Made by a program: the position numbers and the translations under genes. 45,826 bases of DNA from a virus: positions 1 to 45,826 of IMG/VR virus record IMGVR_UViG_3300031365_000002. One strand, 5' to 3'. The notes below the pieces were generated by a model, which was not told where the DNA came from, did not search any database, and was given only the letters and a program-made list of their open reading frames with translations. This document shows, piece after piece, positions 11,417 through 29,362 of the stretch; the first letter of the stretch is position 1; the number at the start of each line of letters is the position of its first letter.

Positions 11417-11644
11417 TCAATCCTCAGCCCCAGCCACTATTATTAATTTACCATTTTTATCAACTTGTAATCCTGCATCATTATTATCAGGTATATTATC
11501 ATATAATACACCAACTCCAGTATCTCGAAGTCTAAAAACAAGCCAATTATTTGCTAATAATATTACTCCATTATCACCTTCTATCAACTCTAATTCTACA
11601 GCAGATTCTTTATTTTCTACATTTTTAATTTGATACCTTGACAT
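11417..11644 (-). CDS. Hypothetical beta-rich protein
   Basis: 75 residues; alternating hydrophobic pattern (AVELELIEGDNGVILLANNW; GKLIIVAGAED) typical of a small beta-sandwich, similar in feel to short virion or fibre-head proteins. Its start overlaps the NinG gene end by 20 bases. Not recognised. Confidence 0.5.
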   Translation of the reverse strand: MSRYQIKNVENKESAVELELIEGDNGVILLANNWLVFRLRDTGVGVLYDNIPDNNDAGLQVDKNGKLIIVAGAED

Positions 11645-12038
11645 TTTTTAGCTCCTTAATTCTATCTGCAAAAAGTTGACTTAAATTATCTACTTCCCAA
11701 ATTTTCCATTTTCTTACTTTATTTCCATCTTGTATTAATTGCTCAAATTCTTTTTGACCCAATTTTTTCAAAATAACTAAACCAAGTTCTGCTCTTTCTT
11801 CATAAAATCTATTACAACTTTTACATTGTGGTCTAACATTTCTTTCATCAAACCTTGTGTTTTTATGATTTCTACCTATATAATGTCCACAATCTATATC
11901 TTTCCAATGAAATTTATGTCCACAAGTTGCACAGATACAATAGCCATTTTTATCTGCATATTTCAAGCGAATATATTGACTAAAATAATGGTCGCATTTT
12001 TTATATGCAGCACGTAAATTTTTACTTTTTCTAATCAT
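11625..12038 (-). CDS. ninG: NinG/Rap-like recombination endonuclease
   Basis: 137 residues. The zinc-binding/HNH-like core is clear: CATCGHKFHW, DIDCGHYIGR, RFDERNVRPQCKSCN. This is the NinG (Rap) pattern of lambda-like phages, a structure-specific nuclease that resolves recombination intermediates. N-terminal AAYKKCDHYFSQYIRLKYAD and the C-terminal basic part are also family-like. It lies downstream of primase and helicase, fitting a replication-recombination operon. Confidence 0.8.
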   Translation of the reverse strand: MIRKSKNLRAAYKKCDHYFSQYIRLKYADKNGYCICATCGHKFHWKDIDCGHYIGRNHKNTRFDERNVRPQCKSCNRFYEERAELGLVILKKLGQKEFEQLIQDGNKVRKWKIWEVDNLSQLFADRIKELKNVKVSN

Positions 12039-12069: not shown

Positions 12070-12906
12070 TTAGGATTGATTTTCCACTACCTGTTTTAAG
12101 AATTTTCGTGTCCATTCTTTTCCTTTAATTTTTACAGTATCCCGTAAATCTTTGATTTCTTCCGGTGGAGAAAGAACTATTGTTATTATACTACAATTAT
12201 AATGATGAAATGTAACTTGTCGAACTAATTCAACAGCTCCTTTAACACCTACTTTATCATTATCACATATAATTACTATCTTATTACATTCATAGAGTAA
12301 AATAAATTGTCTAATTAAATCATTGCCAACCTGAGCCGAAGGTTTAGCAATTCCATAAAATCCCACTAAACCAAGTAATGCAGCTAAATCTGAAACACCT
12401 TCAGTAATAAAGAGGGGGGACGATATTTCGATGTTAGGTATGAATAATCCCAAAGATGAACCTTTTACAGCACATTTTTTACCATTTGGAAATCTACGTT
12501 GGATACCAATAATTTCTTTATTAGATTTTTTCATCGGAAACGTATAAGCTTCACCATCCCAACCAATTTCCAATCTAAATAGATAAGCCGGATGAATATT
12601 AAATTCATCTGCTAAATTTTGTCTTTGTTTATCTGTAATTTTTTGCTGATAAAATTCATTAAGTGTATTCCAGTTAATAGGAGCTTTTATTCTTTTTTTC
12701 TTTGGCATTTTTAAATTTTTGTAATCATTTGATGCAACGTGGATATAACCGCCAGCAAAAGGCTCTCCAATTTTTAATGAAGATTCAACCCTTGTGCAAA
12801 GAATCTTTGAACCATCACGACTTACACAGCAAGCGTCCGAGTGATGGCATAAAGGACATACTTTGCCCAAATCTGATAGTCTAACCCATTCTTCGGAAAA
12901 ACTCAT
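12070..12906 (-). CDS. DNA primase (zinc-binding plus Toprim)
   Basis: 278 residues. The N-terminus has a zinc ribbon (CPLCHHSDACC from residue 17, further Cys at 37). The Toprim fold follows: FITEGVSDLAAL with Glu 169 and IICDNDKVG with Asp 215 and Asp 217, the metal-binding acidic residues. It would make RNA primers for the phage polymerase, working with the separate DnaB-type helicase encoded just upstream. It is shorter than DnaG and lacks the helicase-binding domain, so it resembles the primase half of a T7 gp4-like protein. Confidence 0.8.
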   Translation of the reverse strand: MSFSEEWVRLSDLGKVCPLCHHSDACCVSRDGSKILCTRVESSLKIGEPFAGGYIHVASNDYKNLKMPKKKRIKAPINWNTLNEFYQQKITDKQRQNLADEFNIHPAYLFRLEIGWDGEAYTFPMKKSNKEIIGIQRRFPNGKKCAVKGSSLGLFIPNIEISSPLFITEGVSDLAALLGLVGFYGIAKPSAQVGNDLIRQFILLYECNKIVIICDNDKVGVKGAVELVRQVTFHHYNCSIITIVLSPPEEIKDLRDTVKIKGKEWTRKFLKQVVENQS

Positions 12907-13241: not shown

Positions 13242-13583
13242 TCAATCTAAATTTCTTTTTATATTTTTATATGATTCATCAGAAAGCTTGACTTTTTTTC
13301 CATCATCAATGGAAATAGTGTGATAAACTGGAGTAACTAATTCAACTTGATTGCTTTTTGCAAACCAAAAGCCAGTTATACCATCCGTAACAAGAATATC
13401 ACAAATATTATCATAATTAGAATCATAATCAGCATTTTTCTTCGCATTAAGACCAGTTCTAAGAACTGTAAGATACCCCACTCTACGATAGTGGCAGTTA
13501 GTTGAATATCTTCCGTCAATTACCCCAAAAACATAAGATGCGTCATACACTTTTACTTTATCACCAACTTTTAGTTTTCTCAT
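13242..13583 (-). CDS. Hypothetical SH3-barrel-like protein
   Basis: 113 residues beginning MRKLKVGDKVKVYDAS, a pattern typical of small SH3/KOW barrels, with VLVTDGITGFWF later. It starts on the base that ends the helicase gene (coupled). Possibly a helicase or replication accessory factor by position; not recognised. Confidence 0.55.
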   Translation of the reverse strand: MRKLKVGDKVKVYDASYVFGVIDGRYSTNCHYRRVGYLTVLRTGLNAKKNADYDSNYDNICDILVTDGITGFWFAKSNQVELVTPVYHTISIDDGKKVKLSDESYKNIKRNLD

Positions 13584-14527
13584 TAAAATTCTACCTTAAA
13601 ATTAGGGTTTCGGAAAGCCATAGCTTCAGGTAAAAATACACAAGGAATCCTACCTGTTTTACCATTACGATTTTTTGCAACAAACAACCAAGCTTCTCCA
13701 TCATCTTCTGTTTCAATATCTATTTCTCTCATCTCATAATAAACAGGTCGATGAATTAACACAACACAATCGGCTGTTTGTTCCACCCCACCACTTTCTC
13801 TCAAATCTGACAAACGAGGCTCGTGATTGTTTCGTTTTTCGACTTCACGATTTAATTGGCATAACAATAAAATAGGAATATCATATTCCTTTGCTATATT
13901 TCTTAAACCTTTGCACATTATATCAATCTCTAACCATCGAGCTTCATTACCACCACCCAAGCTCATTAACTGCAAATAATCTACAATTACACAATCAACA
14001 TCAATTTCTTTAAGTTTTTGAGCTAATTGACCTGGAGACATTGACGAAGTATCATCAATATAAATATCCAAAGTCTGTAAATATTCAATAGCATTGTCTA
14101 TTCTTTTCTGTTCAACTAAACCTAATTTTAGATTATGCAAACTTACTTCGAGATAATTTGCAATCATTCTTTCAATCATTAACTTTGCTGACATTTCCAA
14201 AGAACAGAAATAAACCGTATGTTCCTTCCCCAAATTCATAGCCATTCCAATAGCAAGTGAAGTTTTACCTATTGACGACCGACCAGCTATAATTGTTAAT
14301 TCTTTTGGATGTAATCCTAAAGTAACTTCATCCAATTTATCAATACCTGTTTGCATACCCCAACAAGAAGTAGTAATATTGTTGGCAATACTTTTAACTG
14401 AATTAGATAGATTAACTATGTTATCCATTTTTTCAGTTTTTAATTGTTCTTTAATACGAAATATTTTTCTATTTGCTTCATCTTCTGTTTTACATTTACT
14501 GCAAATTTTTGCTTTTGTTTTTTTCAT
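13583..14527 (-). CDS. DnaB-type replicative helicase (RecA-fold core)
   Basis: 314 residues from ATG 14527. Walker A AGRSSIGKTS (about 81-90), Walker B DCVIVDYLQLM (about 179-189), H3 motif with LLLCQLNREVEKR and an SGGVEQTADCVV segment with arginine-finger region: a hexameric 5'-3' helicase. There is no DnaB N-terminal domain; instead a short CSKC-containing basic leader. It partners the separate primase. The upstream start at 14575 would overlap the previous gene by 80 bases, so 14527 is preferred though its ribosome site is weak. Confidence 0.85.
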   Translation of the reverse strand: MKKTKAKICSKCKTEDEANRKIFRIKEQLKTEKMDNIVNLSNSVKSIANNITTSCWGMQTGIDKLDEVTLGLHPKELTIIAGRSSIGKTSLAIGMAMNLGKEHTVYFCSLEMSAKLMIERMIANYLEVSLHNLKLGLVEQKRIDNAIEYLQTLDIYIDDTSSMSPGQLAQKLKEIDVDCVIVDYLQLMSLGGGNEARWLEIDIMCKGLRNIAKEYDIPILLLCQLNREVEKRNNHEPRLSDLRESGGVEQTADCVVLIHRPVYYEMREIDIETEDDGEAWLFVAKNRNGKTGRIPCVFLPEAMAFRNPNFKVEF

Positions 14528-14762
14528 AATTATCCAGAAAAGATTCTTTTCGAGCCGGTCTGGTATCTTTAGCATCCCATCGTTTTTTGTTCCTTGCCCA
14601 AGTTTGCATATTTCCTTTCCAGCTTTTCATTGGTTGAACTGTTTTACCCATAACAACCTGCCAACCTCGCTCCTCGTTTTTCCACCACCAATATTCAACA
14701 TCGAGGTCTAAATTCTTCTGTGCTGCATATTCTTTAGCTTCTTTGAGAGTAGGTTTTTTCAT
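14496..14762 (-). CDS. Hypothetical protein, replication-initiator-like C-terminal motif
   Basis: 88 residues. The core (AQKNLDLDVEYWWW, GWQVVMGKTVQPMKSWKGNM, TWARNKKRW) resembles the C-terminal module of phage replication/DnaD-type proteins in which a WKV...MKSWK...W motif is conserved. The protein is otherwise small, basic and Trp-rich. It sits directly upstream of the helicase gene, overlapping it, so a helicase loader or ssDNA-binding role is a reasonable guess. Confidence 0.5.
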   Translation of the reverse strand: MKKPTLKEAKEYAAQKNLDLDVEYWWWKNEERGWQVVMGKTVQPMKSWKGNMQTWARNKKRWDAKDTRPARKESFLDNYEKNKSKNLQ

Positions 14763-14917
14763 TTTACTTTCCTAAACCTTTTAGTTGCTTTACATCGTTT
14801 GCAGGTTACTCTGTTTCTGTGGTCTGTAATTTTTATATGGTAACCATATTTCCCACACGCAGCCATAAATGTATATCTGTATTCAAGCGGAAAATGAACT
14901 ATCTGTTTCTTTTTCAT
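14759..14917 (-). CDS. Small basic Cys-containing protein
   Basis: 52 residues, strongly basic, with a single CKRC pair near the C-terminus (39-42) and Cys 21, and the end TKRFRKVK. ATGA overlaps occur at both ends (with 14914-15318 upstream and 14496-14762 downstream), supporting real translation. Possibly nucleic-acid binding. Confidence 0.6.
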   Translation of the reverse strand: MKKKQIVHFPLEYRYTFMAACGKYGYHIKITDHRNRVTCKRCKATKRFRKVK

Positions 14918-15318
14918 TTACAATCTCGCTTAAAATCTTTTACCAATGGTTTTGTTTTAGGAAAAGTTGGCATATAAATTTTTGACGATACTACACACTG
15001 CCCGTCATTACTTCCAATAGTATTTATCCATTTTGGTTTAATAAAACATTCAATTAGTGTTCCAGCCCAGCTGTTAGCAGCCTCTCTTGAAAAATAAGAA
15101 TGGAATCCTACTTTGTAATTAGAGCTTGAAAAATAACCCTTATTAAGTTTTCCAGATGCTTTATTTAAACCTGATTTATATTTTCCGCTACGAACAGGAA
15201 ATTTAAAAACTGTCCGACTCCAACGAGCCGTTTTATAAACTCTTATATACCCATTTTTTGTATGTTCTTTTATTAGACGTTTTTGATATTCTTTACTATA
15301 AATACTCACTAAACACAT
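14914..15318 (-). CDS. Tandem paralogue B of unknown function
   Basis: 134 residues from ATG 15318. Beta-rich and basic: IRVYKTARW, FPVRSGKYKSGLNKASGKL, VGFHSYFSREAA, ECFIKPKWINTIGSN, and a shared C-terminal SKIYMPTFPKTKPLVKDFK. It is about 80 percent identical by eye to the upstream neighbour at 15331-15738, so it arose by tandem duplication. Ribosome site GGAGG seven bases before the ATG comes from the duplicated end of the SSB gene. No domain recognised. Confidence 0.7.
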   Translation of the reverse strand: MCLVSIYSKEYQKRLIKEHTKNGYIRVYKTARWSRTVFKFPVRSGKYKSGLNKASGKLNKGYFSSSNYKVGFHSYFSREAANSWAGTLIECFIKPKWINTIGSNDGQCVVSSKIYMPTFPKTKPLVKDFKRDCK

Positions 15319-15330
15319 TACCAAGCCTCC

Positions 15331-15738
15331 TCATTTGCAATCTCTTTTAAAATCTTTTACCAATGGTTTTGTTTTAGGAAAAGTTGGCATATAAATTTTT
15401 GATGATACTACACAACGTCCTCCATTTCTTCCAATAGTATTTATCCATTTTGGTTTAATAAAACATTCAATTATTGTTTCTTCCCATTTTACAGCAGCAC
15501 TTCTTGAAAAATAAGAGTGAAACCCTACTTTGTAATCAGGAGCATTAAATCCAAATTTATTAAGTTTTCCAGATGCTTTATTTAAACCTGATTTATATTT
15601 TCCAGTACGAACAGGAAACATAAAACTATTGTTTCTATAATTAAAAGCCGTTTTGTAAACTCTTATATACCCATTTTTTGTGTATTGTTTTATCAAACGT
15701 TTTTGATATTTTTCACTATAAATACTTTCTAAACACAT
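15331..15738 (-). CDS. Tandem paralogue A of unknown function
   Basis: 135 residues from ATG 15738, which overlaps the SSB stop (TAATG); translation is coupled to SSB. Same architecture as paralogue B, with conserved GYIRVYKTA, GKYKSGLNKASGKL, VGFHSYFSR, ECFIKPKWINTIGRN and the C-terminal tail ending KRDCK. Location after SSB suggests a DNA-metabolism role; function unknown. Confidence 0.7.
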   Translation of the reverse strand: MCLESIYSEKYQKRLIKQYTKNGYIRVYKTAFNYRNNSFMFPVRTGKYKSGLNKASGKLNKFGFNAPDYKVGFHSYFSRSAAVKWEETIIECFIKPKWINTIGRNGGRCVVSSKIYMPTFPKTKPLVKDFKRDCK

Positions 15739-16091
15739 TACCAAGCCTCCTCATTTGTTGGTTCATTACTACTTTGAGTAGTTTTATCCCCACCAATAAA
15801 TTCAAAGTTATTCACTTTTACTATAACTCTGCTTCGCTTTTGTCCATTATCTTCCCATCGTTCTTGTTCCAGAAAACCATCTATCAAAATTGGTTTTCCT
15901 TTTGTAAAATATTTTGCGATATTTTCAGCAGTTTTAGACCAGGCTTTACAAGCAAAATAATGGACTTTACTACCACCTTTAACATATTCACTTACTGCAA
16001 TTTGAAAAGTGCAAAGTGCAGTATTATGAGTGCCAACAGATTTAAGTTGTGGATTGTCTGTTAAATTGCCTAATAGTATAACCGTTCTCAT
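15738..16091 (-). CDS. ssb: Single-stranded DNA-binding protein
   Basis: 117 residues. OB-fold features of bacterial SSB are clear: MRTVILLGNLTDNPQLKSVG, TFQIAVSEY, FACKAWSKTAENIAKYFTKG, PILIDGFLEQERWEDNGQKR, and a short acidic tail ending NEEAW instead of the host-type DDDIPF. It coats ssDNA during replication and recombination. It lies in the same operon as the exonuclease, helicase and primase genes. Confidence 0.9.
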   Translation of the reverse strand: MRTVILLGNLTDNPQLKSVGTHNTALCTFQIAVSEYVKGGSKVHYFACKAWSKTAENIAKYFTKGKPILIDGFLEQERWEDNGQKRSRVIVKVNNFEFIGGDKTTQSSNEPTNEEAW

Positions 16092-16673: not shown

Positions 16674-16926
16674 TATTTTTCCTTTCAATATCAATTAACA
16701 ATGATAGTATTGATTTTGTTATTTTTAACATTTGTTCAGTTTCATCAATATTTAATTTGCTATCTTTTAACCTATTTTGAATAAGTTCTTTAACATCTTT
16801 TTCAATAGTTTCAGAAAGATAGTGGTTAAGAACTGATTGAAAACCCTTTAGTCGAGATAGCTTAAATTGATATATTTCTACAAGAGTTTTTCCTTCATCT
16901 TTTAAAATAGTTTTTTCTGTAATCAT
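16666..16926 (-). CDS. Hypothetical helical protein
   Basis: 86 residues, almost entirely alpha-helical with heptad-like hydrophobics (EQMLKITKSILSLLIDIERK). Starts by ATGA overlap with the nuclease gene upstream and its end overlaps the next start. Possibly a small dimeric accessory of the nuclease. Confidence 0.6.
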   Translation of the reverse strand: MITEKTILKDEGKTLVEIYQFKLSRLKGFQSVLNHYLSETIEKDVKELIQNRLKDSKLNIDETEQMLKITKSILSLLIDIERKNNG

Positions 16927-17786
16927 TTTTTAATCCTCACAAATGGACATTTTTGAGCAACTTCACAATAAAATTTACACCGAGTAGCCTCACCTTTTCG
17001 TTCTTCAATATATAAATTCTTCTTGCCCTGTTTAATATAATCAGCCATAACTTTTTTAGCTTTATCTAAACCATCACAAACCCCGCCTTTTAAGGCTGAC
17101 TTTCGGCCAACTGCCATCACAGCATATTTACTATCTTTTTGCCATTTACTAATATTTGAACACTCTCTCAGAGGATATTGTTCAAAAACTTCCAATCGTT
17201 CTTTAATATATTTATCTTGTTCAGCAAAACTCCAAACCCTAACTGGTAATCTTGCAAATGCTATTTTCGGATAATCATCTTTATACAAAGCTTGAGTTTT
17301 TGAAAAATCATCAAAGAAAATATCAAGAAACAATTTTTTTACTTCAAAACCACGTCGTCTCCACTGCCAGCAATAAACATTTACCTGTTTTTCATATTTA
17401 CTAATTTGACTATTTGGTTCGTTGCGATAAATCCAAGCCCAAATTTTCGACCGTTTATAATCAACTATTGTTTCAATGTCTTCAATATAATTATCAGCTT
17501 TGCCAACTATTGTCCATTTACCAATTACATCTTCCTGTTTAACTTCTGCAAATTCATCTTCCTCAATGTGTCCTTCAAGATACTGGTGTAAAGCATTTCC
17601 TTTAATAAATGGTAAGCGGTCAGATATATCAACCACCAATTCGTCATAATACTTCATTTTGAGACTTCGCACCAACGGCTCATCAATTAACTGTGTAACT
17701 GATATGCGATTTTCTTTCGGTGGATAATCTCTTGTCAATATATCAACAAGATATTGCGGCAAATTATATTTGTTTGTAAACTTCAA
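16923..17786 (-). CDS. PD-(D/E)XK nuclease, RecB/Cas4-like
   Basis: 287 residues. The nuclease core is visible: GNALHQYLEGH helix with His (motif I), IETIVDYKRSKIWAWI (the D...DYK motif) and KYEKQVNVYCWQWR (QxxxY-like motif IV). A C-terminal cysteine group (CKFYCEVAQKCPF) plus an upstream Cys in GGVCDG resembles the Fe-S cluster of Cas4/AddB-type RecB nucleases. Probably the phage recombination exonuclease working with SSB and NinB/NinG. Confidence 0.75.
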   Translation of the reverse strand: MKFTNKYNLPQYLVDILTRDYPPKENRISVTQLIDEPLVRSLKMKYYDELVVDISDRLPFIKGNALHQYLEGHIEEDEFAEVKQEDVIGKWTIVGKADNYIEDIETIVDYKRSKIWAWIYRNEPNSQISKYEKQVNVYCWQWRRRGFEVKKLFLDIFFDDFSKTQALYKDDYPKIAFARLPVRVWSFAEQDKYIKERLEVFEQYPLRECSNISKWQKDSKYAVMAVGRKSALKGGVCDGLDKAKKVMADYIKQGKKNLYIEERKGEATRCKFYCEVAQKCPFVRIKK

Positions 17787-21101: not shown

Positions 21102-21121
21102 AAGTTATCCTCTCATTTTAA

Positions 21122-21172
21122 GTTATCAAAGAACCTATACTTAAAGTATACTATATATTTAGGCAAAGTCAA
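21122..21172 (-). promoter_or_regulatory. Leftward promoter U1 with palindromic operator
   Basis: Minus-strand -35 TTGACT (21167-21172), 16-base spacer, -10 TATACT (21145-21150). The -10 is part of the inverted repeat TATACTTTAAGTATA (21136-21150), a likely repressor or activator site, followed by AGGTTCTTTGATAA. The same element without sequence decay is at 23358-23394 (U3). The -35 overlaps the end of the metallopeptidase gene. Confidence 0.7.
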
Positions 21173-21558
21173 ATAACTTTACAAAATTCTTTCCATTGTT
21201 TCAGTTTCATTATTCGTTCTGCTGCTGTTCTATATTCAGAGTCGCCTTTTACTAACAAAAAAATGGTTTTATCAATAAATACTCTTATCAATACAGGATT
21301 GTCTTTTATATGCTTCATTACAAATCTCATAGCGTGATATTCGGCCAATGTATGATTGTAAAGTGTCATACATCGACAACCTTCGGCGTGGTGTATTGCG
21401 TGTCCTATTTCGTGTAATAAACACCCCATTTTGACAGCACCTCTCAAATCTTTGTCAATGAGAATACATTTTTCGAGAGGGTGATATTCACCATTGCCAT
21501 AAACTGAACGATAATATATTTTAACAGGTGATAATTTCTTAATTTCTGTTAGTGTCAT
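21169..21558 (-). CDS. Zinc metallopeptidase-like protein (HExxH)
   Basis: 129 residues. HEIGHAIHH (residues 49-57) gives the HExxH zinc site and AEYHAMRF (72-79) supplies the downstream Glu, as in ImmA/IrrE and related small gluzincins. It is the size of the bare catalytic domain. A second protein here (24668-25117) shares the EYHAMR motif. In phages such peptidases may cut host repressors or toxins; the target is unknown. The DNA-binding partner of ImmA is not present. Confidence 0.7.
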   Translation of the reverse strand: MTLTEIKKLSPVKIYYRSVYGNGEYHPLEKCILIDKDLRGAVKMGCLLHEIGHAIHHAEGCRCMTLYNHTLAEYHAMRFVMKHIKDNPVLIRVFIDKTIFLLVKGDSEYRTAAERIMKLKQWKEFCKVI

Positions 21559-21690
21559 TATAATTCCTACAATTCATACAATCGTTACAAGCCCGTCTGT
21601 AAATAATCGTACACCCTTATACTACTTACTAACATAGTATGCATACATAAACCCATATACTCATATACACTATTTGTCTAAATGTTAGCA
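21559..21690. other. Non-coding spacer
   Basis: 130 bases with no supported reading frame. It holds ACATAGTATGCATACATA-type short inverted repeats and several CATATA/TATACT steps; possibly a promoter or protein-binding site for the upstream part of the metallopeptidase gene. Confidence 0.3.
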
Positions 21691-22620: not shown

Positions 22621-22661
22621 TTATTATTGCAAGGCATCCTTGCCTTTAGCGGTTAGCTATT
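22621..22661 (-). repeat. Cassette hairpin element D2
   Basis: 41 bases identical to D3 (23094-23134) except one base. Minus-strand reading: AATAGCTAACCGC, then AAAGGCAAGGATGCCTT with stem AAGGCA/TGCCTT and loop AGGA, then GCAATAATAA. It contains the stop of the 22657-22863 gene. Its GCTAACCGCT is the inverse complement of AGCGGTTAGC in the upstream element U2, so the gene is flanked by inverted repeats. Confidence 0.8.
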
Positions 22662-22863
22662 GTTTGATAATTGTACGACCAATTGTTGTAACTGCAAGCA
22701 CCATTGGCTCACCACATTCACAATAAACCTCTTTGTCGTCCGGCACGTTCCAGTAGTCGCCAGCATTTGCTGAATATTGTGCACCACAAGCTGGACAAAA
22801 CAGTCTCTCATCTGCTCGGTCTTTGTTTAGTATTTGGTCTGCCAAATCTCCATATGTAATCAT
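22657..22863 (-). CDS. Zinc-ribbon protein in cassette 2
   Basis: 68 residues with CPACGAQY near 23-30 and YCECGEPM near 47-54, a zinc ribbon; ends in GRTIIKQ. Bracketed by repeat elements U2 and D2. It shares no sequence with the gene in cassette 3 except cysteine richness, so the flanks rather than the gene are conserved. Confidence 0.65.
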   Translation of the reverse strand: MITYGDLADQILNKDRADERLFCPACGAQYSANAGDYWNVPDDKEVYCECGEPMVLAVTTIGRTIIKQ

Positions 22864-22873
22864 ATAGTCCCTG

Positions 22874-22906
22874 CCTTTCTGCTAACCGCTATAAACTTAT
22901 CAAAGA
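22874..22906 (-). repeat. Cassette upstream element U2
   Basis: 33 bases identical to 23322-23354: minus-strand TCTTTGATAAGTTTATAGCG followed by GTTAGCAGAAAGG. Includes the AGGCAGGG-type ribosome site region. Unlike U1 and U3 it lacks the upstream promoter; instead the 22900-23073 gene ends inside it (its TGA is in CTTTGATAAG). Confidence 0.8.
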
Positions 22907-23073
22907 GCATCGTTAAAACTTTGCATTGCCGCATCAGCTTCTTTGTCGTCCAATTTAATATCGCAAATATCTTTTGATAAATGTTCCTCGCCAGTGTGTT
23001 TGCAAAGTCTAACTGCGTGTTCCTCACTTTCAGCTTCAACTACTACTTCAATCGTTACTCTATACTTTGCCAT
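22900..23073 (-). CDS. YxV-family small protein
   Basis: 57 residues: MAKYRVTIEVVVEAESEEHA, then VRLCKHTGEEHLSKDICDI and an acidic helix. Same plan as the copies at 12903, 18542 and 20573. It follows hairpin D3 with an AAAGGGTTTGATT site and ends within U2. Function unknown. Confidence 0.6.
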   Translation of the reverse strand: MAKYRVTIEVVVEAESEEHAVRLCKHTGEEHLSKDICDIKLDDKEADAAMQSFNDAL

Positions 23074-23093: not shown

Positions 23094-23134
23094 TTATTAT
23101 TGCAAGGCATCCTTGCCTTTGGCGGTTAGCTATT
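23094..23134 (-). repeat. Cassette hairpin element D3
   Basis: 41 bases, 40 identical to D2. Contains the stop codon of the 23126-23311 gene, but in a different frame relative to the repeat than in D2 (TAA against TAG), showing the repeat is not simply shared coding sequence. Followed by AATAATAAATAAATGAAAGG and the YxV gene. Confidence 0.8.
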
Positions 23135-23311
23135 TCGTAACATATTGACAATATCGTCCGGCGGTTTGTTATTCGGCTCATTCGTCTTATTCCATGCCGG
23201 ACACTTGAAACAAGGTTTGCCATTGTAACAGTAATTTTGATTGACAATTTTGTTCGGGCACTTACGGCAACAATAAATCAAATTATCGTTAGCTTTAGTT
23301 ATTGTCTTCAT
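23126..23311 (-). CDS. Cys-rich protein in cassette 3
   Basis: 61 residues with eight cysteines: YCCRKCPNKI, NYCYNGKPCFKCPAW. Likely binds zinc. Pro/Asn-rich end NEPNNKPPDD. Transcribed from promoter U3 and ended by hairpin D3. Such small Cys-rich proteins recur in phage early regions with unknown roles. Confidence 0.6.
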   Translation of the reverse strand: MKTITKANDNLIYCCRKCPNKIVNQNYCYNGKPCFKCPAWNKTNEPNNKPPDDIVNMLRNS

Positions 23312-23321
23312 ATCCTACCTA

Positions 23322-23394
23322 CCTTTCTGCTAACCGCTATAAACTTATCAAAGAACCTATACTTAAAGTATAACACATAAACAGAGTAATGCAA
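23322..23394 (-). promoter_or_regulatory. Leftward promoter U3 with palindromic operator
   Basis: Minus-strand -35 TTGCAT (23389-23394), 16-base spacer, -10 TATACT (23367-23372) within the inverted repeat TATACTTTAAGTATA (23358-23372), then AGGTTCTTTGATAAGTTTAT and the U2-identical 33 bases with AGCGGTTAGC. Matches U1 over the palindrome and AGGTTCTTTGATAA. Drives the small-gene cassettes leftwards. Confidence 0.7.
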
Positions 23395-23764
23395 ATAAAA
23401 AATAAAAAAGATAATGCAGATTGTAACCCATTGCAGCATATGGTGTTACGTCTTACTATAAAGCAGTAAATCTTTATACTGCGTATATCGGACTATGCCA
23501 TATAGGTTGTATGCTTGCGTCCTATAATAATGAAGGGTGGTAGGGCAGTCGGAAATATGAAGGTGGAGGTGGTAATACTACGACCAAATTATATTTCATA
23601 TTTTTAATGAAAAACACTTATATACCTATTTAAATGGCAATTATTCCCATTTAAAAATAGTTGGCTCAGTAGACTTTGAATGAAGTGCCTTCCTATGAAT
23701 ATTAGAGACTGGTTTGACTTGACTTTAAGCATATTTACACCTCAGATTATAAGGATTATATCAA
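23395..23764. ncRNA. Non-coding, hairpin-rich region (candidate ncRNA or origin)
   Basis: 370 bases without a credible gene but with a row of stem-loops: GTAAC-CCAT...ATGG-GTTAC (about 23417-23444); GCAGTA/TACTGC around AATCTTTA (about 23471-23490); TATAGG/CCTATA around a 14-base loop (about 23501-23526); AAATATGAA pairing with TTTCATATTT (about 23553-23605); and CTATTTAAATGG/CCATTTAAAAATAG (about 23626-23660). The middle part is G-rich (AGGTGGAGGTGG). It could be a structured RNA, a leader with attenuators, or a replication origin. Direction unclear. Confidence 0.4.
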
Positions 23765-24226
23765 TTATATAGATTTTAAGATTGGTTCATCTGGGTTCAT
23801 CCAAATTTGCCCCATTGGAACACCTTCAACTTTCATTAATATCCAGCCTTTAAAACTAAATAATCTGCCTTTTGCTTCTTTCTTCAATCTCTCATTTTCA
23901 GCCTGGAGTTGCTCGATAATTCGTATGGCAACATCGCCAGCACCTTCCCTAACTCTAAAAACATAATGACCCCCACGCTTTGAACTCTGCCAACAACACG
24001 CCCAGAACATCACGTTTTCTTGCAAGGCACTGATTATGCTTTCATTCCCCGACCAACCACCGGTCGAAAATTGATATATGTTATTAATACCATCAAAATA
24101 CCCAATATCGGCATATTTCCATCGCTCTTTGATATACTGCATCAAACTACAAAAGTCCTTATAATCCCATTCGGCAATTTTCTGCAATTCACTTTCTTCT
24201 GGATAGCCGTCTACATCCATAATCAT
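23765..24226 (-). CDS. Conserved hypothetical phage protein
   Basis: 153 residues. YPEESELQKIAEWDYKDF, then FSTGGWSGNESIISALQENV, WACCWQSSKRGGHYVFRV, a leucine-zipper-like IIEQLQAENERLKKEAKGR, and a C-terminal VEGVPMGQIWMNPDE. The STGGWSGNE...S.RGGHY core is a recurring unknown in phages. The coiled coil suggests oligomerisation. Its ATG (24226) directly follows the stop of the next upstream gene. Confidence 0.65.
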   Translation of the reverse strand: MIMDVDGYPEESELQKIAEWDYKDFCSLMQYIKERWKYADIGYFDGINNIYQFSTGGWSGNESIISALQENVMFWACCWQSSKRGGHYVFRVREGAGDVAIRIIEQLQAENERLKKEAKGRLFSFKGWILMKVEGVPMGQIWMNPDEPILKSI

Positions 24227-25887: not shown

Positions 25888-27732
25888 TTATTTTATTTCT
25901 CCATAGATTTTTCCAGAATTTATATCCACTGGAAGTGGTATTGAAAGTTTATAAGCATTTTCCAGAATTTCTTTTATAGCCAGTTTAATTTCTTCAGTAT
26001 ATTTAGAATTACATTCAAATACAATCTCGTCGTGCACAAGCAAAAGTATTCTCAAATCCCAATCTGGGTTTTCATCAGCTAATTCCAAACAATTTGCCGA
26101 AGCAATTCTTAGAACATCAGCAAACAATCCCTGAATCCTATGATTAAATGCTTGACGTTTGGCTTTACCACTTTCATATTTATTACTCGAATAAACTGCT
26201 TTTAAATGTCTGTATCTTCCTAATTCAGTTCTAACACATCCTTTTTTTCTTAATAAATTAGAACATTCAGTAATAGCTGGTTTAACTCCAGGATAAGTTT
26301 CAAAAAACAAATCCAAATATTCCTTAGCTTTTTCTACAGTTACATTAAGACTTTTAGACATACCATATTCCGTAGTCCCATAAGCAATTGGGAAGTTAAT
26401 TTTGTTTTTAGCATCATAACGTTCTGTCTTGAATTTCTCACAAACTTTAGCATAATCAGGATGTGTTCTATATAATTTTTCTTTTGGTATATCCAATTTA
26501 AAACAAGTATTTGCAGTAGTAAGATGTAAATCAATATCTTCTAAAAATGCCTCCATCATTACCTTATCCTGAGAAACGTGGGCCAAACCTCTAAGCTCTT
26601 GGCCGGAATAATCAGCAACAATAAGGTCTTTTCCAGATGCAGCAATAAAACAATTTCTTACATTTATTCCTAAATCATTTGACATTTCTTTTGGAAGCTG
26701 TTGTAAATTAGACGATTGTCTGCCGGTTACAGTTCCACAATTATTAAAAGAACCTCTATATCGTCCATCAGAATCAGGAATAAACTTTTTAATATATGTT
26801 GATTTCAACTTACAAGCCTGACGATATATATCCAAATACTGTACAAATTTGACAGTATCTTTATATTTTTGAATTACTGAAGTATCAACTTGATAATTTT
26901 CTTTTTTTGTTGTAGGAAGTTCGCAATTAAAACGATTTCTTAATATTTCAGCTAATTGTTTTGTTGAGTTAAAATTAACAGGACTAATCTTTTCATCATC
27001 ATCTAAAAAATTTGATTGAATATACCAGTTAATATTTAATTCTTTTAACATAAAAGTTTGGGAATCATCTATTATCTTGGTAAGTTCAATATCAAATTTC
27101 TTTATTTGTTCAGTATCCAAATATATGCCATTAATTTCCATATCCCTAAGAACAAACTGAAATGGCATTTCTATATCATAAAATAAATCTTCAAGGTCAT
27201 TTTTTATCAAACCCAAAGATGTTTTCTCCCATAATTGATAAGTCCAGATAGCATCGTTAAAAGCGTATTCGTAAAACTCTGAACTACTTCTATCCAAATC
27301 TTTGACTTCATCATATTTTTTGATTTCAGATTTAGGAACTTTCAAAACCCTCACAGCACAATCTTTAAGTCCATATTTTGAATTTTCGTTCAATAAATGT
27401 ATCGCTGTCATTGTACAATAAATGTTTTTAGTTATACCAATTTTTTCTTTATATAAAACTTTTAAATCAAAAGGTGCGTTGTGCATTATAACTAAATCAG
27501 CTTGTATAAGTAAATTAGAAAGAGATTTTTTAATTTCTAATTTATCAAATTTTTTAAGAGTGGTAAAATCAATATAAGCAACAAGATTACCATCACAAAG
27601 TGAAATTCCTTCAAGTTGCATAATATCATAATCCAATGATGTAGTTTCAGTGTCAAGTGAAAAAATATCAAAATTGGTTTTGGTAAGAAATCTTTGAAAC
27701 TCATCAAGATTTTTAACTACTATTTTTTTCAT
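25888..27732 (-). CDS. Family A DNA polymerase with 3'-5' exonuclease
   Basis: 614 residues. Exonuclease domain: DTET (Asp 27, Glu 29), HNAPFDLKVL (Asp 89), YAFNDAIW (Asp 160), so proofreading looks intact. Polymerase domain: motif A VADYSGQELR (Asp 374), motif B with Arg 438, Lys 442, Phe 447 and Tyr 451 (FPIAYG), motif C LLVHDEIVF (His-Asp-Glu 567-569). No 5'-3' exonuclease domain, as in T7-like polymerases, but somewhat short for one. It replicates the phage genome with the helicase, primase and SSB of the operon downstream. Confidence 0.95.
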   Translation of the reverse strand: MKKIVVKNLDEFQRFLTKTNFDIFSLDTETTSLDYDIMQLEGISLCDGNLVAYIDFTTLKKFDKLEIKKSLSNLLIQADLVIMHNAPFDLKVLYKEKIGITKNIYCTMTAIHLLNENSKYGLKDCAVRVLKVPKSEIKKYDEVKDLDRSSSEFYEYAFNDAIWTYQLWEKTSLGLIKNDLEDLFYDIEMPFQFVLRDMEINGIYLDTEQIKKFDIELTKIIDDSQTFMLKELNINWYIQSNFLDDDEKISPVNFNSTKQLAEILRNRFNCELPTTKKENYQVDTSVIQKYKDTVKFVQYLDIYRQACKLKSTYIKKFIPDSDGRYRGSFNNCGTVTGRQSSNLQQLPKEMSNDLGINVRNCFIAASGKDLIVADYSGQELRGLAHVSQDKVMMEAFLEDIDLHLTTANTCFKLDIPKEKLYRTHPDYAKVCEKFKTERYDAKNKINFPIAYGTTEYGMSKSLNVTVEKAKEYLDLFFETYPGVKPAITECSNLLRKKGCVRTELGRYRHLKAVYSSNKYESGKAKRQAFNHRIQGLFADVLRIASANCLELADENPDWDLRILLLVHDEIVFECNSKYTEEIKLAIKEILENAYKLSIPLPVDINSGKIYGEIK

Positions 27733-27887: not shown

Positions 27888-27983
27888 TCACCTTCTTCTA
27901 TTTCTTCGATTTTCTAAACGAGTTACAAATCTGATATTTCCTCTTTCATAATTACCATTATTATCAATTCTATCATCTACCTC
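27888..27983 (-). pseudogene. C-terminal relic of an HNH homing endonuclease
   Basis: In the frame ending at TGA 27888-27890 the sequence reads VDDRIDNNGNYERGNIRFVT then RLENRRNRRR. This is the C-terminal signature of phage HNH endonucleases (D.IDNN.GYE.GN.RW.T..EN..N+R). There is no start codon and the N-terminal nuclease half is absent. It occupies most of the spacer between the RNase H and 27732-27884 genes, so a homing endonuclease once sat beside the polymerase gene. Confidence 0.6.
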
Positions 27984-28362
27984 CGTCAAAAAAATATTGC
28001 ACAATCCAATCAGCAGTTTTATTTTTTTCTCTCGGAATCCATTTAATAGACCAATAATCAAATTTACTCAATTCTGCTTTAGCCATATCTACAAGTTCTT
28101 GTAAATGTTCGTGGTTTATTCTCCAGCCCCAACTAATTTGTCCTGCTACAAGTTTGGAATCTGTAAAAATTTGACAACTATGTATTCCTTCTTTATGTGC
28201 TCTACGAATTGCTAAAATTAGTCCTTGATACTCGGCTTCGTTATTAGAAGCTCTACCCATAAGCTCTCCACCCCAAGCAACTTCATTTCTATCCTGATAG
28301 ATAATGTAGCCACAAGCTCCAATTCCTTTTCTTCTACCACCGTCAAAAAAGATGTTATTCAT
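27973..28362 (-). CDS. rnhA: Ribonuclease HI
   Basis: 129 residues. Active-site residues are visible: FDGGRRKG (Asp 7), NNEAEYQGL (Glu 43), FTDSKLV (Asp 68) and NKTADWIV (Asp 117). It would remove RNA from RNA-DNA hybrids and primers during replication, fitting its place beside the DNA polymerase gene. Closest in form to the archaeal/phage-type RNase HI without a hybrid-binding domain. Confidence 0.85.
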   Translation of the reverse strand: MNNIFFDGGRRKGIGACGYIIYQDRNEVAWGGELMGRASNNEAEYQGLILAIRRAHKEGIHSCQIFTDSKLVAGQISWGWRINHEHLQELVDMAKAELSKFDYWSIKWIPREKNKTADWIVQYFFDGGR

Positions 28363-28792: not shown

Positions 28793-28955
28793 CTCAAAAA
28801 TAGTTACAAAATTTCTACTTTTTTGATAAATTGTTACAACCAATAACTGTTATTACTATAATAATCGTTATAATTGATATAATCATTAATATAAACAAGA
28901 AATATACAAAAAAATTTTAAAAAAATTCTCAAAAGGGGGTCAAATGAGTGGAATT
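28793..28955. other. AT-rich divergent control region
   Basis: About 160 bases of roughly 85 percent A+T without genes, with TTATTACTATAATAA inverted repeat and repeated ATAAT/TTATAA steps, then CTCAAAAGGGGGTCAAATGAG. Likely an unwinding or replication-origin type region or the upstream contacts of the rightward promoter. Confidence 0.4.
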
Positions 28956-28990
28956 GTTATACCTTCTGGTATAGTATATAGAGGGGGTTG
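28956..28990 (+). promoter_or_regulatory. Rightward late promoter PR
   Basis: TATACC-TTCT-GGTATA inverted repeat (28958-28973) overlaps an extended -10 (TGG TATAGT, 28968-28975), followed by ATATAGAGGGGGTTG. The TTCTGGTATAGTATATAGAG core mirrors TTTTGGTATAATATATAGAG at PL1, so the three promoters share one recognition. It reads into the terminase and virion genes. Confidence 0.5.
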
Positions 28991-29266
28991 TTTTTATAGA
29001 GGTCTTTGACAATTTAATATTGAGCGGGCAGATGTGAAATTAACCGCAACCGTGTCCAAAGCAGATGAGCCTAAGGACTATTTGGGGGAGATGTAGAAAC
29101 AATATGTTTCTGCTAAAACTATAGATTCAGCGAAAAAATGACATCCCAAGAAGGGGGGAAGTTACTACCGACCCCTGTCAATCTTCAATCTGGTTGATAA
29201 TAGAGAAGACGCTAATCATATAGAATATTCAATATTATATAATTATATAATTAATCTGGGGTTATT
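28991..29266 (+). ncRNA. Structured leader of the virion operon
   Basis: About 275 bases without a gene between PR and the leader peptide. Stems seen: GCGG/CCGC (about 29024-29047), GTCC/GGAC (about 29053-29078), perfect AGAAAC-AATAT-GTTTCT (29094-29110), GGGG/CCCC (about 29153-29175). Base composition is notably less AT-rich than the flanks, which suggests constraint by RNA structure or a packaging (pac/cos) site next to the small terminase gene. No match to a known riboswitch was recognised. Confidence 0.4.
29234..29251. repeat. 18-bp perfect palindrome
   Basis: ATTATATAATTATATAAT is its own reverse complement, and is preceded by AATATTCAATATT. Just upstream of the terminase genes, it may be an operator or a small-terminase binding site. 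Confidence 0.55.
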
Positions 29267-29362
29267 ATGAACTACCAGAGGAACTTGGTCTATCTGGTAT
29301 TTATATTTTATAAAGTGAGTTCGGAGGGGTGTTCCTGCCCGTGCACCTCTCCACTCCATTGA
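29267..29362 (+). CDS. Possible 31-residue leader peptide
   Basis: ATG 29267 with GGGG five bases upstream. Hydrophobic start (NYQRNLVYLVFIFYK) and Cys-rich end (EGCSCPCTSPLH). The stop lies five bases before ATG 29368 of the small terminase gene, which itself lacks a ribosome site, suggesting translational coupling. The frame crosses the SD hairpin 29323-29352. Confidence 0.35.
   Translation: MNYQRNLVYLVFIFYKVSSEGCSCPCTSPLH
29323..29352 (+). other. Stem-loop GGAGGGGTG / CACCTCTCC
   Basis: A 9-bp stem with one G-U pair and a 12-base loop. It holds the only Shine-Dalgarno-like GGAGG before the terminase gene, so translation of the leader peptide would be needed to open it. No U tract follows, so it is not a terminator. 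Confidence 0.5.

Follow-up and report, generated by a model that had tools for sequence, protein, structure and literature searches.

The longest gap between genes in the leftward half of the window (the whole 45,826-nt stretch of DNA analysed here, an IMG/VR virus record) very probably represents, as judged by comparison with related phage contigs, a conserved cis-acting site of the clade to which this phage belongs, and the copy carried by the window itself is likely to be functional. The function that we prefer, and propose tentatively, is that of the replication origin of the phage. With somewhat greater reserve, the element may be viewed as a novel module of origin type in a large clade of uncultivated phages, composed of a unique, strand-specific C-rich motif, an AT-rich tract and clade-specific GTCCKATAAC sites, which a novel initiator would recognise, and retained even in the absence of a detectable DNA polymerase A. 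On the sense strand, the order in the clade, as shown by sequence comparison, is an AT-rich tract, a bipartite C-rich motif (G-rich on the opposite strand), often copies of GTCCKATAA and, finally, a strong extended -10 promoter. The corresponding features of the window are as follows.

23312 to 23764, no strand assigned: gap without ORFs that separates two groups of leftward genes and contains the whole element (ORF-gap scan)
23743 to 23769, minus strand: three tandem 9-mers, TATAATTGA TATAATCCT TATAATCTG, at the right border of the gap (from the sequence)
23590 to 23614, minus strand: AT-rich tract adjoining the C-rich block on its 5' side (AT content of 24-mers)
23559 to 23577, minus strand: C-rich motif 1, TATTACCACCTCCACCTTC (scan for C over G, and alignment to relatives)
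23532 to 23545, minus strand: C-rich motif 2, CCCTACCACCCTTC (aligned with CCTACCTCCCCC / CCACCTACACCCCC of relatives)
23519 to 23527, plus strand: repeat core GTCCTATAA, which reads TTATAGGAC on the sense strand (9-mer enrichment in the clade)
23486 to 23493, minus strand: partial second repeat copy GTCCGATA, inverted relative to the first and with one mismatch to the 9-base core (from the sequence)
23463 to 23482, minus strand: hairpin GCAGTATAAAGATTTACTGC followed by TTTATAG, a possible leftward pause site or weak terminator (terminator scan)
23367 to 23395, minus strand: promoter U3, TTTGCA-17-TATACT with a TG extension, i.e. an extended -10 (promoter scan)

The gap measures 454 nt when ORFs of at least 45 aa on the leftward strand are considered. 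It is flanked by leftward genes, one of which stops at 23765 while the next starts at 23311, and U3 (23395-23367) lies at its left end; the preliminary description had likewise placed it between two leftward operons, just upstream of U3, and had also correctly noted a G-rich core, which is G-rich on the plus strand. The statement in the same description that the gap holds no gene is accurate for leftward ORFs of at least 45 aa, but a putative 42-aa ORF is present at 23732-23604 (minus strand) with a GAGGTG resembling a ribosome site. A peptide-pattern search identified no relative in IMG/VR of the gene at 23765-24226. The leftward region encodes DNA polymerase A (polA, 25888-27732), RNase H (27973-28362), an exonuclease (16923-17786), a single-stranded DNA-binding protein (SSB, 15738-16091), a DnaB-type helicase (13583-14575), a primase-like protein (12070-12906) and a NinG-like protein (11625-12038).

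Several further repeats were observed in this DNA. Promoter U3 belongs to a 57-nt stretch which is partly repeated at 21120-21176. An array similar to the tandem 9-mers at the right border of the gap is located in the divergent region at 28860-28890 (plus strand), of which 28 nt are identical in G001; tandem 9-bp repeats of this type (TATAATYGT / TGTAACGAT) also occur at 21557-21591 (minus strand) and in contigs L191, L195 and L212, with nine strict matches in 23 contigs as against none in shuffled sequences, and they are perhaps operator or origin repeats. The small genes at 22621-22906 and 23094-23354 possess nearly identical flanks (a 41-nt GCAAGGATGCCTTGC hairpin unit and a 52-nt leader), resembling duplicated cassettes, and the leader NYTCTTTGATAAGTTTATAGCGGTTAGCAG at 23318-23355 and 22870-22907 (minus strand) appears by eye to be similar to boxA antitermination sequences. 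Furthermore, a gene of unknown function is tandemly duplicated at 14914-15324 and 15331-15744 (minus strand) with blocks that are 88-94% identical, while a long non-coding stretch with several GC-rich segments (28930-29328, plus strand) precedes the terminase small subunit gene.

Within the gap, positions 23575-23496 read on the leftward-sense strand constitute the strongest stretch of C over G in the 22.6 kb leftward region (C minus G of 20 in 80 nt, z 4.4). The AT-rich 24-mer next to it is 92% AT, a value reached by only 0.4% of the 24-mers of the genome. The copy of the motif in this phage is a divergent one: its leave-one-out score is 14.7 bits, and three other sites on the sense strand of the window match better. 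The exact 16-mer GGGTGGTAGGGCAGTC gave two matches in IMG/VR, neither of which is related at that place, and a BLAST comparison with named phages and plasmids returned nothing significant for the region.

No close relative spanning the gap was found in IMG/VR: contig L005 (73% identical polymerase) stops inside polA, and L092 (99% identical terminase) is only 5.8 kb in length. Similarly, none of the named relatives in the phage collection searched is close, the best identities being near 30-35%. A search based on an eight-sequence polymerase alignment yielded over thirty contigs, most of them 33-43% identical. Direct alignment of the gap to those of its relatives was near chance, except for G011, and it was this alignment that led to the C-rich block. 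In G011 (L179, 3180-3510), a long leader that extends from a U3-like promoter to the next gene and has several pairable segments was also seen, for which ARAGORN and Rfam reported nothing. In 22 uncultivated relatives, whose DNA polymerase is mostly 35-43% identical, a C-rich stretch is located downstream of polA and carries the shared motif GGCYACCTMCMCCCCC; in most relatives the strongest or second strongest stretch of C over G downstream of polA is likewise C-rich and often lies in a gap, and many display forms such as GGCCACCTACACCCCC, TACCTCCCC and CCTACCTCCCCC. Contigs L186, L201, L204 and L205 offered little sequence or no clear C-rich block, and no block with the motif was detected in L190, L214, L215, L217, L222 and L223.

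As the blocks were picked for being C-rich, their C bias is in part a product of selection, and the tests of the motif and of the 9-mer are the independent ones. A motif model of width 16 built from the 23 blocks reached 159 bits, as compared to 86±3 (maximum 90) for dinucleotide-shuffled blocks. When each contig was left out in turn, the motif outscored every other site on either strand of its contig in 14 of 23 cases and nearly did so in four more; it failed in L191, whose real motif falls outside the block selected, and was weak in L200 and L202. The motif is usually unique per contig, and its orientation is kept. Additionally, in 21 of 23 members the block has an AT-rich 24-mer among the top 9% no more than 70 nt from its 5' side, and the AT maximum of most relatives is at about the same place. 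The 900 nt that follow the block contain a U3-type promoter on the sense strand in 14 of 23, as against 27% of random segments. A role as an anti-Shine-Dalgarno sequence was considered and rejected, since CCTCC is present in several relatives but CCTACAC in others, this part therefore not being conserved. A more distant genome, G021 (contig L453, 47 kb; terminase 36% identical), carries GGCCTACCTACACCCCCACTCCGTCCGATAATA in a non-coding gap, where both motif and 9-mer are present. A search in which control genomes gave a signal detected no DNA polymerase A in G021, and no homologue of the DnaB of the window was found by a search run without a positive control. The element is thus not simply the 3' end of a polA operon, as G021 has the motif but no detectable polA.

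The short repeat GTCCKATAA, which played no part in picking the blocks, is strongly enriched in the clade. The 22 clade contigs (344 kb) contain 56 copies and 15 close pairs, compared to 5.3±3.3 and 0.02, respectively, in permuted sequences, whereas 151 other phage contigs (1.8 Mb) contain 19 copies, with 25.9 expected, and no pairs. Of a looser form, GTCCNATAA, 43 copies fall within the 11.3 kb of gaps and another 43 within the 379 kb elsewhere, which makes it 34-fold denser in gaps. Copy numbers per gap range from zero to eight in both orientations; eight of 23 members lack an exact 9-mer, and the window has one exact and one partial inverted copy. Pairs of the full repeat were also detected in 98 IMG/VR stretches, many of them from very different, larger viruses, and the genes beside the GTCCKATAAC arrays of other viruses revealed no common family. 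Dense GTCCGATAA arrays (up to 18 in 700 nt), mostly in one orientation, were observed in L289, L292, L317, L243, L309, L246 and others; these viruses are not among the relatives found for this clade and share no common neighbour family. Moreover, highly similar sequence beginning GGTTAATCCCTTGTCGATTTCCTATGGGGTCCCCGGATCCC adjoins the repeats in L281, L279, L266, L286, L248 and L314, which derive from different samples. A triple-repeat scan of bacterial genomes retrieved mainly short tandem repeats and no phage-type arrays, and pointed to no host; nothing relevant to the GTCCKATAA repeat was found in the papers searched.

The origin reading is favoured because a unique site, an AT-rich tract and short sites of the kind bound by proteins occur together with replication genes around them. 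In the proposed mechanism, the C-rich motif and the short repeats would be recognised by an initiator supplied by either phage or host, the neighbouring AT-rich tract would open, and the replication proteins of the phage (DNA polymerase A, primase, SSB and DnaB-type helicase) would load there. An AT-rich tract adjoining candidate initiator sites, as anticipated of an origin, is present in the sequence, while several regularly arranged copies of such a site are not, the window having only the two 9-mers mentioned above. Pfam and PHROGs scans recognised no initiator gene, and GC skew, which had been suggested as a check, displays no switch at third codon positions across the gap (0.26 and 0.21 to the left, 0.31 to the right); both results count against an origin. 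So do the variable copy number and orientation of the repeats, unlike strict iterons, the retention of the C-rich motif by G021 without a detectable DNA polymerase A or DnaB homologue, and a motif in the window that is weaker than most. Additionally, the C-rich strand invariably coincides with the transcribed one, a match for which an origin has no need.

This last feature is accounted for by the main rival to the origin, a Rho-type terminator beside a promoter, which we regard as somewhat unlikely. According to this explanation, the gap is an operon-boundary element in which leftward RNA from the polA operon includes a Rho-loading (rut) site, rich in C and poor in G, and ends before U3, the repeats being operators for U3 or the next operon. 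By the criteria of RhoTermPredict (PMC6407284), no other rut-like stretch in the leftward half of the window scores as high as the block (78 nt, C/G 3.5, with C at regular intervals), the next best reaching 2.2. A pause-type hairpin is situated directly downstream of the block, although sites like it were about equally frequent in shuffled sequences in the terminator scan, and the promoter downstream in 14 of 23 members would likewise suit a boundary between operons. Rut sites are without fixed sequence, whereas here a 16-base motif is conserved. Most contigs have this motif only once, although terminators would be expected at several places, and the second copy of the U3 promoter (21120-21176) has no preceding C-rich block. 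Furthermore, the window has a 78-nt stretch of C over G with a C every 11-13 nt, but the blocks of five relatives break this C-spacing rule, and in several relatives the block either breaks it or is far from the best rut-like stretch. Neither the AT-rich tract nor the clade-specific repeats would be needed by a rut site. A unique site fits an origin better than a terminator.

Less probable again is that the gap serves as another kind of unique DNA site, for partition, recombination/attachment or packaging, with the short repeats as arm sites for protein binding. The element is indeed unique, fixed in orientation and non-coding, with short sites both ways round. However, no integrase or partition family was identified among the leftward proteins scanned, a set that covers part of the ORFs there and very little of the rightward half. 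Packaging sites are usually near terS, and terS (29329) is about 5.6 kb away.

The preliminary description had offered an ncRNA or an origin on the grounds that the gap contains more stems than expected by chance. The density of stems is not borne out: the 370 nt concerned fold no better than shuffled versions of themselves (z -0.25 on the plus and -0.19 on the minus strand; 36 and 38 of 100 shuffles, respectively, as stable). In a genome-wide scan of 60-nt folds, the mean z of the region falls at the 6.5th percentile (plus strand) and the 26th (minus strand), and many coding stretches score below it. A structured ncRNA, whether a G-rich transcript of the plus strand or a leftward small RNA with an unpaired C-rich stretch, is unlikely, and the gap probably holds no RNA gene. 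An ncRNA would agree with a stable plus-strand hairpin at 23550-23610 (z -3.3, for a stretch chosen post hoc) and a modest dip in fold energy across about 23411-23660 (z about -2.3 in one run and -1.5 in another, for 23410-23665). Against it, Rfam returned no family for the region at gathering or relaxed thresholds, a relaxed match to RsaOG (E 3.1) being dismissed as chance, and repeat copies occur in both orientations. No consensus pair was found in an alignment of the region from 16 sequences, which is poor and provides a weak test, and antisense promoters, which would yield a plus-strand transcript, are not clearly enriched (four of 23, as against 12% of random segments); together, these two results speak against an RNA from the plus strand. 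The hairpins may instead be a by-product of inverted repeat copies and of the G-rich/C-rich strand bias. The origin half of the earlier proposal stands as first choice, on account of the C-rich motif, AT-rich tract and 9-mers in relatives rather than of hairpins.

Finally, a decayed copy of the clade element, functionless in this phage, is very improbable: motif and repeat copies are weaker than those of relatives, but the leftward region still has no stronger C-over-G stretch, and the AT-rich tract, C-rich block, 9-mer and promoter keep their order.

The unique conserved motif offers a defined place at which to test the start of replication and the separation of early operons in these phages. 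It also illustrates that a region which looks rich in hairpins by eye may be a conserved DNA motif without RNA structure.

If the gap is an origin, its nearest known counterparts are those built from AT-rich DNA and initiator sites. The lambda origin consists of iterons and an AT-rich region (PMC7466680); the clade element resembles it in that its AT-rich tract adjoins repeated short sites and that genes for a DnaB-type helicase, a polymerase and SSB lie in the same genome region. The clade element is, however, intergenic, whereas that of lambda is inside the initiator gene; its constant part is a C-rich, strand-biased motif, its repeats number from zero to eight in both orientations, and an O-like initiator was not recognised. 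The origins of the iteron plasmids RK2, F and R6K likewise combine an AT-rich tract with initiator sites (PMC10797057), and the clade element shares with them the AT-rich tract and short repeats close to a promoter, but no Rep gene was seen and the repeats do not form a regular direct array. In comparison, a Rho-dependent terminator (PMC6407284) is matched by the 78-nt C-rich, G-poor stretch with regular C residues on the transcribed strand and by the possible pause hairpin downstream, while the clade element differs from it in possessing a motif that is conserved in sequence, usually unique per contig and accompanied by an AT-rich tract and short repeats.
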